Shown here in pieces: positions 1,946-29,236 of a DNA stretch of 45,732 bases. Under the pieces are notes generated by a model, which was given only the letters and a program-made list of their open reading frames with translations, was not told where the DNA came from and made no database searches. Source of the stretch: Caulobacteraceae bacterium (GTDB lineage Bacteria; Pseudomonadota; Alphaproteobacteria; Caulobacterales; Caulobacteraceae); the NCBI GenBank assembly GCA_020852035.1, contig JADZBR010000241.1, positions 1-45,732 on the forward strand. The letters are read 5' to 3'. Position 1 is the first letter of the stretch. Each line of letters opens with the position of its first letter. The translations under genes and the position numbers were made by a program.

Positions 1946-2054
1946 TTCCGCTCATTCCCGCGAAAGCGGGAACCCAGGCTTTTTAGGTCAAGCCGGAAAC
2001 GCCTGCGCCTCCGATAGAACACCTGGGTCCCCGCTTTCGCGGGGATGATCGGAA
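1946..2054. repeat. Dispersed palindromic repeat, copy 1 (REP/BIME-like)
   Basis: Two 33-nt arms (1946-1978 and 2022-2054) form an inverted repeat matching at 30 of 33 positions, built around CCCGCGAAAGCGGG and ending in CCCAGG/CCTGGG. A roughly 43-nt spacer separates them. A second copy lies at 27583-27691 in the opposite orientation: its right arm is the exact reverse complement of the left arm here, and the spacer is also similar. The element fills the gap between the convergent response regulator and GMC oxidoreductase genes. It could work as a bidirectional terminator or mRNA-end hairpin, but the second copy points to a mobile intergenic repeat family. Confidence 0.85.
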
Positions 2055-2060
2055 AATGGG

Positions 2061-3653
2061 TCAGGCCCTGGCCGCCAGGTGATCGGCCTGCTTCAGCGCC
2101 AGGGCGATGATCGTCAGGGTCGGGTTGGCCCAGCCGCTGGTGGGGAACAGCGAACTCCCCGCCACATAGAGGTTCTCGATCCCGTGCACCCTGCCGTCGC
2201 CGTCGGTGGCGCCGCGCGCCGGGTCGTCGGCCATGCGGGTGGTGCCCATGTGGTGGTAGCCGGCGATCGGGTTCTTGGAGATCAGCGGGTCGAACACCCA
2301 GTCAGCGGCGGGGTCCGCCAGCCAGGGCGAAAGCTCCACGCGGCCCAGGCCGAGGCGGCGCAGTTCGCCGTCGAGGGCCTGCATGGTGAGGGCCACCGAG
2401 CGCTTGTCGAGCGGGCTCGTGGCCCAGTGCAGCCGGCCGCGCGGCATCCCCAGGGCGTCGCGCGAGGCGGGGTCGAGGGTCACGCGACTGTCCGGGTTGG
2501 GCGCCTGCTCGGTGCGGACCACGGCGTAGATCCGCCGGTCGCTGGTGCGGGTCATCGCATAGGCCCGCCAGGGATCGACCATCTCCTGCAGGCGGGTGCC
2601 GCCGTGCTTGACCGCGTACCAGACGCTGCGCCAGCCGCGGCTGGGCGCGGCCATGCTGTGGCGCATGTAGTTGAAGCCCTGCATGAAGGCGCTGAGCGGC
2701 TTGCCGGGCGGGCGGCGCACATTGACCGTGAAGCTGCAGTTCAGCAGCCCCTCCTGGCGCATCAGCGCATCGCCCGAGCGCCAGGCGGCGGCGAAGCGGC
2801 TGCCGCGCATGCGGAACGCCTTGCCCATGCGCAGCACCCGGATCGGCTTGTCCGTGACGATCTCTCCGCCGCGGCAGTGGATGTGTTCCATGAAGGCGCG
2901 GCCGACCCAGTCGTTGCCGAGGCCGTTCGGCAGCACCGAGCGGGAGGCCAGCATCAGCCGGGCGTTCTCGATCCCGCCGCAGGCGAGCACGAAGGTTCTG
3001 GCCTCGATCCGCGTCTGGCGGCCCTGCAGGTCGGCGACGGCCGCGCCCGCGATGCTGCGGCCGTTCGCGGCGGCGACCACCTCGGTGACGGTGGCCCCGG
3101 TGATCACCCGGATGCGCGGATGGTCGAGGATCTCGCGCCGGTGCGAGGCGGTGAAGCGGTCGATGTGCAGGTCGAACTGCCAGTAGTCGGCGTCGATCCT
3201 GTCGCGGTTCACCCGCGGCAGGCTGGCCCGGCGGTCGAGCACGTGCATCGTGTGGTAGTCGCTGAGCAGTTCCAGCTGCCGCTCGGCCCGGTCGTAGTAG
3301 GGCGCCAGGGTCTCGGACCCATACGGCCAGCCGGAGAGCGGGATCGCCTCGCGCGCCTCGAAGTCGATGGGATCAAGCCGGCAGGTGCGTCCGCCCCAGA
3401 TGGCGGTGGTGCCGCCGAAGAACCGCAGGCGCGCCCGCTCCAGGTCATAGTAGGGCAGGCCGGTGTTCTCAGCCTTGTTGAGCGCCTGCACGCCCGGGTC
3501 GTAGTCGAAGCCGCCGCTCTCGACGAGCAGCACCTGGCGCCCCGCGTCGGCCAGGGCCTTGGCCAGCGTCTGGCCGGCCGCGCCCGCGCCGATGATGCAG
3601 ACCTCGGCGGTCAGCGGGCCGCTGGCGGCGACGTCGGCGAAGGTCTGATGCAT
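2061..3653 (-). CDS. GMC-family FAD-dependent oxidoreductase
   Basis: This 530-residue protein has an N-terminal FAD-binding Rossmann motif (IIGAGAAGQTLAKAL, near residue 20) and the typical GMC C-terminal block: YHHMGTTRM, then GIENLYVAGSSLFPTSG and WANPTLT. The first His region and the Asn of WANPT match the catalytic pair of the glucose-methanol-choline family, which oxidises alcohol groups of sugars, sterols or alkanols. The substrate cannot be read from the sequence. No signal peptide is seen. It starts 33 nt after the aminotransferase stop on the same strand, so the two may be co-transcribed. The start is ATG. Confidence 0.9.
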   Translation of the reverse strand: MHQTFADVAASGPLTAEVCIIGAGAAGQTLAKALADAGRQVLLVESGGFDYDPGVQALNKAENTGLPYYDLERARLRFFGGTTAIWGGRTCRLDPIDFEAREAIPLSGWPYGSETLAPYYDRAERQLELLSDYHTMHVLDRRASLPRVNRDRIDADYWQFDLHIDRFTASHRREILDHPRIRVITGATVTEVVAAANGRSIAGAAVADLQGRQTRIEARTFVLACGGIENARLMLASRSVLPNGLGNDWVGRAFMEHIHCRGGEIVTDKPIRVLRMGKAFRMRGSRFAAAWRSGDALMRQEGLLNCSFTVNVRRPPGKPLSAFMQGFNYMRHSMAAPSRGWRSVWYAVKHGGTRLQEMVDPWRAYAMTRTSDRRIYAVVRTEQAPNPDSRVTLDPASRDALGMPRGRLHWATSPLDKRSVALTMQALDGELRRLGLGRVELSPWLADPAADWVFDPLISKNPIAGYHHMGTTRMADDPARGATDGDGRVHGIENLYVAGSSLFPTSGWANPTLTIIALALKQADHLAARA

Positions 3654-4861: not shown

Positions 4862-5047
4862 CCAAATCCTCCCCCATGTAGCAAAGCGGAATGGGGGAGG
4901 GGGACCGCGAAGCGGTAGAGGGGGCGAGGTTCTGCACCGAGAGCCAGCAAGGAGGCGTCGGCGAGAACCTGCCGAGACTGACGCCCAGTCGCGCCCCTTC
5001 AACCGCTTCGCGGTCCCCCTCCCCCGCAGGCGGGGGAGGATTTTTGG
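4862..5047. repeat. Nested palindromic intergenic element
   Basis: This element occupies most of the 331-nt divergent gap between the aminotransferase and the cystathionine beta-synthase gene. The outer ends are complementary: CCAAATCCTCCCCC at the left against GGGGGAGGATTTTTGG at the right. Inside lies a perfect 21-nt inverted pair (4896-4916 and 5002-5022) containing ACCGCGAAGCGGT, itself a small palindrome. Each end also forms its own hairpin (CCTCCCCCAT...ATGGGGGAGG at 4868-4900; CCTCCCCCGC..GCGGGGGAGG at the right). The remaining roughly 130 nt up to the GTG at 5179 must hold the promoter of the transsulfuration operon; I recognise no riboswitch or clear promoter there. Confidence 0.8.
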
Positions 5048-7936: not shown

Positions 7937-10900
7937 ATGACTATCGGGACGATTTCCATGCGCGCGGCGCTCTTCGCCGGCGTTTCGCTGCTGGCCGCCT
8001 CGGCGGCCCAGGCGCAGGACGCGCCGGCGCCTGCGGCCGATGGGGTGGCCGAGGTCGAGGAACTGGTGGTCGTCGGCTCGCAGATCCGCGGCGCCCAGGT
8101 CAACGAGGCGCTGCCGGTCACCGTGCTCTCGACCAACGACATCGAGGCCACCGGCGCCACGGGCGGCGACGAACTGCTGCGCTCGATCCCGCAGATGGGC
8201 GACGTGGCGTTCAACGAATCGCGCGACGCCGGCGGCATCAACGACGCCCGCGGCGACGTCGCCTCCATCAACCTGCGGGGCCTGGGCACCGGCAACACCC
8301 TGGTGCTGCTGAACGGCCGGCGCATGGTGCTGCACCCCGGCACCCAGGCCGAGAACCTGATCCCGGTCACTTCGGTGAACGCCAACGCCATCCCCGTGCT
8401 CGGCATCGCCCGGGTCGAGGTGCTGCGCGACGGCGCCGCGGCGATCTACGGCACCGACGCGGTGGCGGGCGTGGTCAACAACGTCCTGAAGACCCGCTTC
8501 GACGGCCTGACCGTCGAGGCCGAGGGCGGCTTCATGGAGGACACCGACTTCCAGGAGTACGAGCTCAACTTCGAGGCCGGCCACACCTTCAACGACGGCA
8601 AGAGCAACATCTCCCTCTTCGGCTCGCACCTCAACCGCGACCGGCTGCGCGCCAATGAGCGTCCGTTCTCGCGCTCCAGCGACCTGCGGCCCCTGGTCGA
8701 GGGCACCGCGTTCGCAGGCGACACCGAGTTCGACAACCGTTCGGGCGACAGCCCCTGGGGCGAGTTCATCCGCCTGAACCCCAACACCTTCGGCGCGGCC
8801 GGGACCACCACCTACGTCGGCTCGACCCAGCTGGCGGCCAGCAGCGGCAGCTTCCATGCCCAGCCCGCCACCAACGACGGCTGCATCGTCACCTTCGGGG
8901 ATGTCTGCTTCGACAATTCCACCGCCGCCGCCACCGCCACCGGCGCGGACTCCAACCTGCGCTACAACGTCAACGAGGTTCGCAACCTGCTCGGCGAGGT
9001 CGACCGCACCAACCTCTTCGCCTACTTCAACCACGAGTTCGACAACGGCCTGGAAGCCTTCGCCGAGGCGGGGGTCTACTACGCCGACTACAGTTCGCAG
9101 CGCGACCAGGAGACGGCCCTGGCCAGCCAGCGGCTGATCATCCCCGCCAACGCCTACTACCACCCGCTGGGCTCGGGCGCCGGCCGGCTGGCGAACCTGC
9201 ACAGCGGCTCCGCCACCGGCGCCTTCCCCGCCGCCGGCGTGCCGGTGGAACTGCAGGACTATCGCGTCGTCGACGCGGGCCCCCTGACCTATAACGTCGA
9301 GGACCTGGTCACCCGCTACCTGGCGGGCCTGCGCGGCGAGTTCGCCGGCTTCGACTGGGAAAGCGCCTTCCTCTATTCGCGCGCCAAGACCGACGACACC
9401 ATGCAGGTCGCCAGCATGACCCTGTTCCAGCAGGCGCTCAGCGGCACGACGGCCGACGCCTACAATCCCTTCAACGGCGCCGACCCGAACAATCCGGAAG
9501 AGGGCGATTCCTCGCCCAACCCGCAGAGCGTGATCGACAGCTTCATCGTCGACGTCTCGCGCATCAGCAAGACCTCGCTCAGGCTCTGGGACTTCAAGGT
9601 CTCCAAGCGCGACCTCTTCACCCTGCCGGCCGGCGACGTCGGCGTGGCGGCGGGTGTGGAACTGCGCCGCGAGACCTTCAGCGAGGACCGCGACCCGCGG
9701 CTGGACGGCACCATCGTCTTCACCGCCCTCGACGGCTCGTCCAACGGCAGCGACGTGATGGGCGCCTCTCCCACCCCCGACACCAAGGGCGCGCGCAATG
9801 TGCAGTCCGGCTGGCTGGAGTTCGCCGTTCCGGTGGTCTCGCCGGACATGAACATCCCGCTGGTCCGTTCCGTCGATCTGCAGCTGGCGGCCCGCTATGA
9901 GCACTACACCAGCTTCGGCGACGTGCTGAAGCCGAAGGTCGCCGTCGGCTGGCGGCCGGCCGAGTGGCTGCTGGTCCGCGGCTCCTGGTCGGAGGGCTTC
10001 CGCGCCCCCAACCTGCCGCAGCTCTACGAGCGCGGCATCCAGCGGTCCAACACCCGCAGCGACTGGGCCAAGTGCGAGATCGCCCGCCGCAACGGCGACA
10101 TCGCCAACTTCGACGAGTGCACCATCAGGCAGGGCGTGGTCTCCAACCGCTCGGGCAGCCTGGAGCTGGAGCCGGAGGAATCGGAAAACTTCACCGCCGG
10201 CGTCGTCTTCGAGCCGCCTCTGCCGTCCGGCTACGGCCGCCTGACCATCACCGGCGACTACTGGCAGGTGAAACAGAAGGGGCTGATCGGCCTGTTCGGC
10301 GATTCCAGCGCCATCACCCTGGACTACTTCCTGCGCCTCTCGGGCAGTTCCAACCCGAACGTGCAGCGCGCCGCGCCGACCCCGGACCAGATCGCCGACG
10401 CCCAGGCCGCGGGCATGCAGCCCGCGGGCGACATCATCCAGGTGATCGACAACTACTCCAACCTGGCCCCGCGCGAGGTCGAGGGCGTCGACATCGCCGT
10501 CTACTACTCGATCGACGACACCGCCTGGGGCGACTTCGACGTGAAGTTCAACGCCGCGCGCCTCCTGACCTTCTACCAGGACCCCGACGCCGACAAACAG
10601 GCGCTGATCGACGCCCAGAAGGCCGGGACCATCGACCCGTCGATCTTCATCCCCGGCGCCGAGAGCCTGATCCAGGAGAACGGCCTGCCCAAATGGCGCG
10701 CCACCGGCACCGTCACCTGGCGCAACGGGCCCTTTGGCGCGGGCTATTTCGCCTCCTACACCGGGCCGGTGAACGACACCTCCGCGACCCTGGCGGACGG
10801 CACGCCCTGGCGGGTGAAGTCGCACCTGACGCACAACCTCTATGGCCAGTACACCTTCGAGGGCGGTCGCTGGCTGGATGAGACGCGGGTGCGGATCGGG

Positions 10901-11017: not shown

Positions 11018-11060
11018 GACGCGCCGCCAGATCTCCGGATCGAGGGGATCGGAAACAGGG

Positions 11061-11163
11061 TGTCATCCCGGACGGCCGGCAAGGCCGATCCGGGACCCGG
11101 GGCCGCGCGCGGTGCAGAACCTCCTGGGTCCCGGCTCTCCGCTGCGCTACGGCCGGGATGACA
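11061..11163. repeat. Palindromic intergenic repeat with TGTCATCCCGG ends
   Basis: The outer arms TGTCATCCCGGACGGCCGG... (11061-11098) and its imperfect complement ending ...GGCCGGGATGACA (11126-11163) are most similar at their tips (TGTCATCCCGG and CCGGGACCC). The spacer is 27 nt. The element fills most of the gap between the TonB receptor stop and the gamma-glutamyltransferase start. It is unrelated in sequence to the CCCGCGAAAGCGGG family. I see no clear promoter in the 20 nt left before the next gene, so the promoter may lie inside or before the repeat. Confidence 0.65.
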
Positions 11164-11183
11164 CGAGAGTGGAGAGCTTTGCG

Positions 11184-25683: not shown

Positions 25684-25692
25684 CGCCGCGAG

Positions 25693-25831
25693 CCTTCCCC
25701 CAGCATGGGGGAAGTGGCCCGAAAGCCGTAGGCTGAGGGTCGATGGGGGAGATTTGAGAGGAAGCACCGGCTTCCCCCATCGACCCTCGCCCCTTCGGGT
25801 CTCAGGCCACTTCCCCCATGCTGGGGGAAGG
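25693..25831. repeat. Large nested palindromic element
   Basis: A perfect 27-bp inverted repeat (25693-25719 and 25805-25831: CCTTCCCCCAGCATGGGGGA... against its exact complement) encloses a second perfect 16-bp inverted repeat (25735-25750 and 25773-25788: GAGGGTCGATGGGGGA). Each outer arm also contains the small palindrome TTCCCCCAGCATGGGGGAA. The organisation (nested, C/G-rich, intergenic) resembles the element at 4862-5047, but the sequence differs. It fills most of the 226-nt gap between the LD-carboxypeptidase stop and the crotonase start. The 78 nt after it hold the ribosome-binding site GGGAGG; no clear promoter is seen. Confidence 0.85.
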
Positions 25832-25909
25832 TTTGCTCTCCCGCATCACGCCGTTGATTGCCGCAGCGTCCGGCGCTCCACTGTCGGCCGGAACGTCAGG
25901 GAGGACGCC

Positions 25910-26733: not shown

Positions 26734-27537
26734 ATGGGACAGGCCAACGGGCGCAAGAGCGCATTCATCACCGGCGCGGCGTCCGGCATGGGGCGCGAGA
26801 CGGCCAGGCTCTTCGTGGAGAAGGGCTGGTTCGTCGGCGGCTACGACGTCAACGACGAGGGCCTGAAGAGCCTGGAGGCTGAGCTCGGCGCGGAGAACTG
26901 CGTCGTGCGCCGGCTCGACGTGACCGACCGCGCCGACTACCAGGCCGCGCTGGCCGCGTTCGGCGAGGCGACGGGCGGCAAGCTCGACCTCCTCTACAAC
27001 AACGCCGGCATCGGCCGCGGCGGGCCGTTCGCCGACCAGCCGTTCGAGGACGTGCTGGCGGTGGTGCAGGTGAACTTCGTGGGTGTCTTGATCGGCATCC
27101 ACGCAGCCCTGCCGATGCTGCGGGCGACGCCGGGGTCGATGTGCTTCACCACCTCCTCGTCGTCGGCGACCTACGGCATGGCCAACATCGCGGTCTATTC
27201 GGCCACCAAGCATGCGGTGAAGGGCCTGACCGAAGCGCTGGCGGTGGAGTTCAAAGCCTATGGCGTGCGCGCCGCCGACGTGCTGCCGGGGCTGATCGAC
27301 ACACCGATCCTGCCGCCGGGCGCGGCGGCGATGGCGCCCAAGGAGGGCATGTGGCGCGCCATCCCGCCGGTGGAGGTGGCCAAGGTCGTTTGGGAGGCCT
27401 ACCACGCCGACAAGCTGCACTGGTACGTGCCGCCGGAGCTGGTCGAGTTCGACAAGGCCGCGACGCTGGACCCCGAGGCGATGCGCGACCAGTTGGCCAA
27501 GGGCGGGCTGTTCTCCGGGCCGATTGAGCCGAGCTAG
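26734..27537 (+). CDS. Short-chain dehydrogenase/reductase (SDR)
   Basis: A classical SDR of 267 residues. It has the NAD(P)-binding motif FITGAASGMGRETA near the N-terminus, DVNDEG after beta-2 (an Asp favouring NAD(H)), LLYNNAGIGRGG, the catalytic serine in TTSSSSATYGM, and the YxxxK motif VYSATKHAVKG. The C-terminal part (PPELVEFDKAA) is normal. It likely oxidises or reduces a hydroxy/keto group in the same pathway as the crotonase five bases upstream, for example a hydroxyacyl-CoA step; the substrate is not readable. Confidence 0.92.
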   Translation: MGQANGRKSAFITGAASGMGRETARLFVEKGWFVGGYDVNDEGLKSLEAELGAENCVVRRLDVTDRADYQAALAAFGEATGGKLDLLYNNAGIGRGGPFADQPFEDVLAVVQVNFVGVLIGIHAALPMLRATPGSMCFTTSSSSATYGMANIAVYSATKHAVKGLTEALAVEFKAYGVRAADVLPGLIDTPILPPGAAAMAPKEGMWRAIPPVEVAKVVWEAYHADKLHWYVPPELVEFDKAATLDPEAMRDQLAKGGLFSGPIEPS

Positions 27538-27582: not shown

Positions 27583-27691
27583 TTCGCTCATCCCCGCGAA
27601 AGCGGGGACCCAGGCGTTTTGTCGGAGGACGCCGGCGTTTCCCGCTGAACCAAAAAAGCCTGGGTTCCCGCTTTCGCGGGAATGAGCGGAA
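27583..27691. repeat. Dispersed palindromic repeat, copy 2 (REP/BIME-like)
   Basis: Arms TTCGCTCATCCCCGCGAAAG... (27583-27614) and its near complement (27659-27691) form a long stem with a roughly 44-nt spacer. The right arm is the exact reverse complement of the left arm of copy 1 (1946-1978), and the spacer, read in reverse, is clearly similar (both begin CTTTTT and contain GGAAACGCC). The unit is therefore a whole repeated element in reversed orientation, not just two chance hairpins. It lies between the convergent SDR and FAD oxidoreductase genes. Confidence 0.85.
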
Positions 27692-27739: not shown

Positions 27740-29236
27740 TTAGGCAGGCAGCAGGTCCGCCGATGCATCCAGGCCCACCGCCGCCATCAGCTCGCTGCGA
27801 CCCGGCCCGGGCTTCAGCGGATAGGCGTCGGCCTTGGCGGCCTTCGGCGTCGCCCAGTGGCGCAGCACCTTGGCCATGTTCTCCGGGCGCTTCAGCCAGG
27901 CCGACGGGTGTTCCAGCATGTGGAAGCCGCGCATGGCCGCGCGCATCAGCGCCACGTCCGAGCGGACGGCGATGGCGACCCCATCCTCGGCGAAGCTCTT
28001 CAGCATCTTCGCGCGCAGGGTGGCGCGGTGGTTCGGGGTCAGCGCCTGGCGGGCCCGGCGGATCGCGGCGCGGTCCTGGCGGCGCATGTCGAGGTAGTAG
28101 GGGCGCAGCTCCTCGCGGATCAGCCGGGCGTAGGTGGTCAGGCGCTCGCCGGGAAAGGGGGTCTCGTCGAGCGCGGTGCGCAGCAGGCCCGCCTCCACCG
28201 CGGCGAAGGAGCAGCCGCGGCCGTATAGCGGATTGGTGCGGACCAGGGCGTCGCCCATCGGGAAGAAGCCGTGCACCGCCGCCTCGCCCTTCGGCGCGAA
28301 CTCGCGCCAGCGGCTGTTGAGGTCGCCCATGCCGAACACCTTGCTGACCGGCTCGGCGACGTCCGGCGCGAGCCAGGGGACGAGGCCCGGCATCTCGCGG
28401 CAGACCGCGTCGAAGGTCTCCGGCCGCACGATGGACTGGCGCAGCTCCATCTCGATCTCGGGCACGGCGATGGTGATCGAGAAACAGCCGCCGTCGCCGG
28501 GGAAGACGCCGAACTTCAGGTAGCCGAGGTCGCCGGAGGCCGGCCGCTTGCCGCGCGGCGGTTCGGTCGCGCCGGGGACGAGGCGGTAGTGGCGGGTGAA
28601 GTAGAGGATGCCGGCGGTCTCGCTCTCCTCCGCGATGGCCGCACCGGCCTCGACGAGCTGTTCGACCATCTGCGAGGTGCGGCCGGCGGCGTCGACCACG
28701 ACGGTCGCCGGGATCTCCACCTCGCCCTCGGCGGTCTCGGCCAGGACGCCGCGCACCTTGGGCGGCGGGCCATCCTCCAGCAGCAGACGGCGCGCCCAGA
28801 CGCCGGGGCGGAGCTCGACGTTCGGCAGGCGCTCGACGTAGCGGCGCATGACCAGCTCCAGGGTGGTGCGGCGGCTGGTCAGGATGACGAGATCGGCGTC
28901 CTCGGGCTCGGGCCGGTAGGCGGGCTTGTGCCGGTCGGTGAGCATGTCCGAGAAGCCGATCTCGCGGCAGCCGGCGGCCATCAGGTCGGCCAGCAGTTCG
29001 GGGTGCTCGTCGCGAATCACGGTGCGCAGGCGCGCCAGGAAGGCGTGGCTGTGGCGCAGGTGGCCGACGCCGCGCCTATGCCAGCTCTCGAAGGCCTCGT
29101 CGGCGTCGCCCTCCGGCGGCGGGCCGTCGCGCTCCAGCACCAGGATCCGCCGGCCGGTGGGGGCGAGCGCCAGGGCGGCGAACAGGCCGGCCATCCCGGC
29201 GCCCACCACCAGCACCTCTTCGTCATGGGACGCCAT
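27740..29236 (-). CDS. FAD-dependent oxidoreductase / monooxygenase-like flavoprotein
   Basis: A 498-residue flavoprotein of the p-hydroxybenzoate-hydroxylase-like fold. The FAD-binding motif VLVVGAGMAGLFAALALA is at the N-terminus, ending with Glu in VLERDGPPP. VVVDAAGRTSQMVEQL lies mid-protein, and the second FAD motif VHGFFPMGDALVRTNPLYGRGCSFA is near residue 310. Between is HLRHSHAFLARLRT, common in uncharacterised halogenase/geranylgeranyl-reductase-like members. The C-terminal roughly 120 residues are helical and Arg-rich. The substrate is unknown. No signal peptide is visible. The gene is divergent from the cytochrome c gene (107-nt gap). Confidence 0.85.
   Translation of the reverse strand: MASHDEEVLVVGAGMAGLFAALALAPTGRRILVLERDGPPPEGDADEAFESWHRRGVGHLRHSHAFLARLRTVIRDEHPELLADLMAAGCREIGFSDMLTDRHKPAYRPEPEDADLVILTSRRTTLELVMRRYVERLPNVELRPGVWARRLLLEDGPPPKVRGVLAETAEGEVEIPATVVVDAAGRTSQMVEQLVEAGAAIAEESETAGILYFTRHYRLVPGATEPPRGKRPASGDLGYLKFGVFPGDGGCFSITIAVPEIEMELRQSIVRPETFDAVCREMPGLVPWLAPDVAEPVSKVFGMGDLNSRWREFAPKGEAAVHGFFPMGDALVRTNPLYGRGCSFAAVEAGLLRTALDETPFPGERLTTYARLIREELRPYYLDMRRQDRAAIRRARQALTPNHRATLRAKMLKSFAEDGVAIAVRSDVALMRAAMRGFHMLEHPSAWLKRPENMAKVLRHWATPKAAKADAYPLKPGPGRSELMAAVGLDASADLLPA

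Follow-up and report, generated by a model that had tools for sequence, protein, structure and literature searches.

Palindromic repeat units of a Caulobacteraceae genome share their arms with small GIY-YIG nuclease genes, candidate movers of CGTC-type repeats

The 109-bp palindromic units that occur twice in a 45,732-nucleotide window of a Caulobacteraceae genome (the window being the whole stretch of DNA analysed here) are, to judge from their sequence and distribution, members of a mobile, dispersed REP/MITE-like family. Elsewhere in the same genome the arms of these units enclose a gene for a small GIY-YIG nuclease, and the association of this nuclease clade with REP arms is near-obligate. 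We consider it likely that the 109-bp units are non-autonomous derivatives of the GIY-YIG element and that the cognate nuclease would be responsible for moving arm-bearing DNA.

The first-pass annotation of the window had described a palindromic unit of about 109 bp present twice in opposite orientation, with one 33-nt arm identical between the copies. Alignment of copy 1 (positions 1946-2054) with the reverse complement of copy 2 (27583-27691), neither of which is assigned a strand, gives identity at 99 of 110 columns (90%), and the opening 39 bases are fully identical, a longer match than had been claimed. The chance of any 33-base match in 46 kb of the same composition is about 3e-9, and the two longest-scoring pairs (I1 and I2) in an inverted-repeat scan of the window are those that set copy 1 against copy 2. 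Each copy is a short non-coding, head-to-head REP dimer in which two inward-facing arms surround a spacer that itself has an orientation. An arm forms a small hairpin by itself (TCAT-YCCCGC-GAAA-GCGGGR-ACCCAGG), and each unit is predicted to fold into one long hairpin of about -70 to -77 kcal/mol. In copy 1 the left arm, TCATTCCCGCGAAAGCGGGAACCCAGG (1952-1978, plus strand), carries the TCAT head, the GAAA-loop hairpin and the CCCAGG tail, and the inverted right arm lies at 2022-2048 on the minus strand, both being exact matches to the arm pattern. The left arm of copy 2 (27588-27614, plus) is likewise an exact match; its right arm (27659-27685, minus) matches the pattern and, together with its outer and inner flank, accounts for the 39 bases that match the left arm of copy 1 exactly. 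Both copies do lie between convergent genes, as had been noted. Copy 1 is positioned between a putative response-regulator-like gene (1579-1938, plus), whose stop codon is 7 bp from the unit, and a putative GMC-type oxidoreductase gene, so named from its sequence (2061-3653, minus), whose stop codon is 6 bp away; copy 2 is positioned between genes at 26734-27537 (plus) and 27740-29236 (minus). A search of the window against Rfam returned no match.

The window also contains a second, different dimer, GTCATCCCGG...CCGGGACCC, at 11060-11164 (inverted-repeat pair I10, no strand assigned). It resembles the repeats that we call type D, and a dimer of this kind also adjoins the second GIY-YIG gene of the host genome (L075, contig C361). 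The inverted-repeat pairs at 25688-25836 (CTTCCCCCATGCTGGGGGAAG type) and 4893-5025 (GGGGGACCGCGAAGCGG type) look like additional repeat families.

Many further copies had been expected in the genome, and they are found. In the draft host genome (3.2 Mb, 392 contigs, 88% complete) an exact 14-base core occurs 86 times, against none for the reversed control pattern, and a 27-base arm pattern with up to three mismatches identifies 95 arms, again with none for the control. These arms form about 45 head-to-head pairs, bringing the element to about 45-50 dispersed copies in total; two loci (L037 and L049) hold lone hairpins that resemble collapsed dimers. Gene context, read with a simple codon-usage gene caller that placed 43 units and compared with 106 other gaps from the same loci, confirmed the bias towards convergent gaps, which hold 21 of the 43 units as against 8 of the 106 other gaps (p 5e-8). 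Codirectional gaps account for another 21 (63 of 106 in the comparison) and divergent gaps for a single unit (35 of 106; p 2e-5), such that 42 of 43 units are in convergent or codirectional gaps and promoter gaps are avoided. For many units a stop codon falls within about 6-20 bases of the unit start. The outer flanks of 45 units are pyrimidine-rich, with almost no G, at bases 10-17 beyond the arm; this may mean that the element prefers such targets, or that its outer end is weakly conserved.

In the his operon of the host genome a REP dimer (L043, 1990-2081, contig C69) lies between hisA and hisF, directly against the start codon of hisF, and the gap between the two genes is 109. Congeners with a readable junction have a hisA-hisF gap of -4 to 15 bp in all cases but one, the exception (L284) having a gap of 41 at which the upstream frame is probably misread; among the congeners read, the host genome alone carries a short unit between the two genes. 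This junction was used for the comparison of occupied and empty sites because the oxidoreductase gene beside copy 1 lacks a clear orthologue, no true one being found in the genus (best match 49% identity); the site compared is therefore a different one from those of the two window copies. Across the flanks of 45 units there was no consistent signal of target duplication and no clear similarity, and the hisA-hisF insertion shows a possible ATGC repeat as a single case. The number of core copies is very uneven across species of one genus, ranging from 0 to 86. Thus the REP/BIME or MITE-like mobility attributed to the units at first sight is sustained by their many copies, by the bias in the gaps that they occupy, and by the splitting of hisA from hisF at a site that is empty in congeners.

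Outside the window, at about 10296-10653 of contig C49 of the host genome, two arms 334 bp apart exactly enclose a GIY-YIG gene. Its 97-aa open reading frame (10328-10621; 2028-2321 on the minus strand of locus L040) scores 58 bits against PF01541, for which the cut-off is 22.6, and seven residues at catalytic motif positions (Y7, Y18, G20, R28, H32, E65 and N84) are invariant among 13 aligned nucleases; an NCBIfam search with the nuclease gave no match. Core pairs spaced 332-341 bp apart in three other genera were inspected, and all three encode the same GIY-YIG protein.

A profile built from the 13 proteins and searched against 149 genomes of the family matched 88 of them, as compared with 24 for Y1_Tnp. 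Inverted repeats (score at least 14, within 200 bp) flank 46 of 69 GIY-YIG loci and 2 of 393 displaced windows. One of nine listed arm or stem types was present within 300 bp of 60 of 70 nuclease genes; the corresponding figures are 1 of 161 for control windows and 0 of 29 for Y1_Tnp genes. The flanks of the remaining ten nuclease loci were read by eye: a different palindrome built on the same plan is present at nine, and a decayed remnant at the tenth (L124). Phylum-wide, 24 of 29 nuclease loci lie within flanking inverted repeats (0 of 111 controls), and most of the arms read GTCAT...TCCA. Similar repeats surround or adjoin the nuclease gene in Phenylobacterium, Xanthobacteraceae, Bauldia, Scalindua, Microbulbifer and Hellea, and palindromes of a similar kind flank or adjoin it in Neisseria gonorrhoeae, Sinorhizobium meliloti, Azospirillum lipoferum, Novosphingobium, Aeromonas, Shinella, Rhizobium CIAT894, Neorhizobium, Planktothrix, Sphingobium and others. 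The repeat beside the N. gonorrhoeae gene is one that we take to be dRS3. Possession of both arms is not universal, since Photobacterium carries a repeat copy on just one side and Rhizobium L51/94 lacks an inward pair. Phage matches to the GIY-YIG protein were all distant.

Other small GIY-YIG genes were seen in different settings. The host genome has a third, divergent one (L077, contig C214, near 1501-1704) just after a tRNA-like gene, and other palindromic repeats (CCTCCGAAGCTTTAGCGAAGGAGG) precede it along with that gene. In Allosphingosinicella (L098) inverted copies of an CTTCGACAAGCTCAGGCCGAACGG-type repeat bracket a GIY-YIG gene (3001-3228). A related small GIY-YIG gene adjoins tRNA-Pro(cgg) or tRNA-Leu(caa) in Planctomycetota (L089-L094, L097) and in Chlorobiota, Ignavibacteria (L095, L096); in most of these cases a degenerate tRNA-like copy is found at the gene's far side. 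It is tempting to speculate, from this arrangement, that these tRNA-adjoining genes may belong to a sister element type with tRNA genes as its targets.

Nuclease and arm type are paired. A maximum-likelihood tree of 65 nucleases was built from 93 columns, too few to settle many of its forks; on it the arm type changes 17 times, compared with 35.5 when the types are shuffled, and none of 200 shuffles was as low. Elements of the long-stem type D form a supported group separate from most others, and two genomes (G071 and G142) possess both kinds of nuclease, each beside its own arm type. The number of repeats is in turn coupled to the nuclease. Two further stem types were counted because the exact 14-base core is too narrow for all repeat types, and copies at the nuclease itself were removed. 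With p-values that are optimistic, overstating independence because the genomes are related, resident B repeats have a median of 20 in genomes with a type B-armed nuclease and 0 in others (p 8e-7), resident D repeats a median of 39 with a type D nuclease and 0 without (p 1e-5), and resident A repeats a median of 5 with a type A nuclease and 1 without (p 0.016), a weaker coupling than for B and D; similarly, a nuclease is present in 37 of 41 repeat-rich genomes (those in which one of three stem types reaches 10 copies or more, tallied by hand) and in 51 of 108 others (p 7e-7). The four repeat-rich genomes with no nuclease match (G070, G096, G113 and G125, of which G113 is 99% and G125 71% complete) may reflect loss of the enzyme, gaps in the drafts or a different enzyme.

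Insertion polymorphism between relatives extends to the nuclease element itself. In A. lipoferum 4B the nuclease gene and the two REP dimers that border it are situated between sufB and sufC, genes which in A. ramasamyi, A. oryzae, A. sp. B510 and A. thermophilum are 55-129 bp apart and carry no nuclease element. Sphingobium TomTYG46 and TomMM7A have a nuclease element between fnrL and a response regulator gene; on three Sphingobium plasmids the same junction holds a single palindrome (TomTYG64, L233; TomTYG74, L230) or neither (TomTYG72). This lone palindrome could be what is left after an element collapsed, or the target as it was before insertion. No clean junction emerged when empty sites were sought from two Rhizobium loci (L217 and L221). 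As for the origin of the short units, CAGGCTTTTTTG, lying inside the arms on one side, is common to the short units and the nuclease element of the host genome, and at L079 both the CCCAGGCTTTTTG and the AAAACACCTGGG inner edges are common to the two forms. These shared inner-arm bases suggest that the short units arose from nuclease elements by internal deletion.

An AlphaFold model of the nuclease (pLDDT 90) has the GIY-YIG fold, its nearest structures being the UPF0213 protein 1zg2 and then Slx1, a eukaryotic branched-DNA nuclease; at the sequence level the nuclease profile also matches 1zg2 and 1ywl. This modelled likeness would be consistent with an enzyme that favours arms in hairpin or cruciform form. 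In the mechanism that we propose, the full element consists of an inward REP arm, a GIY-YIG endonuclease gene of about 95 codons and a second inward REP arm. The nuclease would recognise its cognate hairpin arms, perhaps as branched or cruciform DNA in the manner of UPF0213 proteins and Slx1, and would cut the element ends, the target or both. Cutting could then lead to the copying or moving of its own element and of whatever short DNA carries matching arms, and insertions would survive mainly just 3' of stop codons, where they would do least harm.

Other movers, or none, have to be weighed against this scheme. The first-pass annotation had looked to a REP-associated transposase elsewhere in the genome, and the inverted, dispersed and intergenic REP pairs do have the general anatomy of REPINs, as would be expected if they were classical REP/BIME units moved in trans by a RAYT (a Y1/HUH tyrosine transposase); Y1_Tnp also occurs in 13 of the 41 repeat-rich genomes, a somewhat higher share than among the others (11 of 108). 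Nevertheless, the RAYT-type domain Y1_Tnp (PF01797) found no match in the host genome, at 88% completeness, or in 28 of the 41 repeat-rich genomes; none of the 29 Y1_Tnp genes examined in the family is flanked by window-type arms, many having their own, unrelated GGGGACAG-type ends; and no RAYT flanked by CGTC repeats is recorded in PMC3733652 either. These searches largely refute a RAYT as mover of the 109-bp units, and we reject it as highly improbable. Equally hard to credit is the notion that the units are immobile host features, such as transcription terminators or mRNA-stabilising hairpins, which were selected and then spread by ordinary recombination. Strong hairpins and the position of nearly all units just past stop codons or in convergent gaps would suit such a role, but it sits poorly with copies about 90% identical amid unrelated flanks, with the hisA-hisF insertion at a site empty in relatives and with the great unevenness of copy number within one genus.

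It counts against the nuclease as mover that homing nucleases do not normally recognise their own ends or jump to unrelated sites, as do the lack of a consistent target duplication and the weaker coupling of type A. The elements and short units studied here occupy many unrelated sites, and because these insertion sites are non-homologous we reject the reading of the nuclease as a homing endonuclease. A more serious, if still unlikely, competitor would have the repeats moved by some other enzyme of the host or element, and the GIY-YIG gene merely carried along as a passenger or as a captured repair-type nuclease. We infer the part played by the nuclease from sequence comparisons, some repeat-rich genomes do without its gene, and three small COG2827 genes of Caulobacter crescentus have been treated as possible repair nucleases (PMC1839093), all of which leave room for a passenger. 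A near-obligate association in unrelated taxa, the pairing of clade with arm and the coupling to copy number would be unexpected of one, however, and it is the nuclease as mover that we prefer.

The small GIY-YIG enzyme is thus probably the long-missing spreader of CGTC-type bacterial repeats. More broadly, we lean towards the existence of a widespread class of mobile element in which a stand-alone GIY-YIG protein serves as the dedicated enzyme and CGTC-type hairpin REPs as the ends, a class that would be the source of many intergenic palindrome families, including dRS3 of Neisseria and possibly the Rickettsia palindromic elements. The open-access full text searched reported no link between GIY-YIG proteins and repeats, and within that scope the novelty of the link is provisional. 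In Alphaproteobacteria few small repeats are as common as the CGTC-type REPs, and the cognate GIY-YIG gene offers a concrete, testable candidate enzyme for them. If this is correct, the known movers of bacterial DNA would come to include a new enzyme fold, and there would be an explanation for the many genes whose only annotation is 'GIY-YIG nuclease family protein' or UvrC-like repair enzyme.

The nuclease elements bear a likeness to several known systems. UPF0213/COG2827 proteins (1zg2, 1ywl) and Slx1 resemble the nuclease in sequence and fold, and the papers searched make no mention of repeat arms with either. I-TevI-type homing endonucleases and the GIY-YIG domains of Penelope-like retroelements share the fold and the association with mobile DNA (PMC1564403, a survey of the superfamily in which neither palindromes nor intergenic or inverted repeats are mentioned), whereas here a stand-alone protein of ~95 aa, which has no large DNA-binding extension and is accompanied by neither a reverse transcriptase nor an intron, is found with its own hairpin ends at non-homologous insertion sites. 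Like MITEs, the 109-bp units are short, non-coding and dispersed in many copies, have terminal inverted repeats, and appear to be internal-deletion derivatives sharing their ends and inner edges with a longer coding element, in this case the putatively autonomous GIY-YIG element; they differ in having no known transposase family (DDE, Y1 or serine) and no clear target duplication. REP/RAYT systems (REPINs, REPtrons and BIMEs) similarly combine non-autonomous inverted REP pairs with one REP-flanked gene for a dedicated nuclease, but they pair GTAG-type repeats with an HUH tyrosine transposase, whereas the repeats here are different, the head of the window units being CCG(C/A)TCAT with no GTAG tag, and the enzyme has a GIY-YIG fold.

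The closest resemblance is to the CGTC REPs defined by Di Nocera et al. 2013 (PMC3733652), which include dRS3 of Neisseria and RPE-4 and RPE-6 of Rickettsia, are prevalent in Alphaproteobacteria and occur mostly as head-to-head dimers at 3' locations. Much like the window units they have a short stem, a 4-5 base loop, a TCAT-like head and a CCA-containing tail, and they form head-to-head dimers between unidirectional and convergent genes; the 45 dimers of the host genome, with 42 of 43 placed units in convergent or codirectional gaps, agree with this arrangement. The published stem is 8-9 bp and that of the window units about 7 bp, with a GAAA loop of 4 bases and a fitting ACCCAGG tail. CGTC REPs carry a strict, unpaired CGTC tag (or TGTC/CCTC) at one end, whereas the window stem type has CGCTCAT/CGATCAT; the window units, reading CCG(C/A)TCAT, are near the strict tag without matching it, and for this reason we call them CGTC-like and not members. 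The type D units of the host and most phylum-wide nuclease elements read GTCAT or CGTCAT, the exact CGTCAT head being present on some nuclease elements, one of them in Neisseria (L214). CGTC REPs were described as ones that 'apparently lack a dedicated transposase' (PMC3733652); here, a GIY-YIG gene lies inside or beside such arms.
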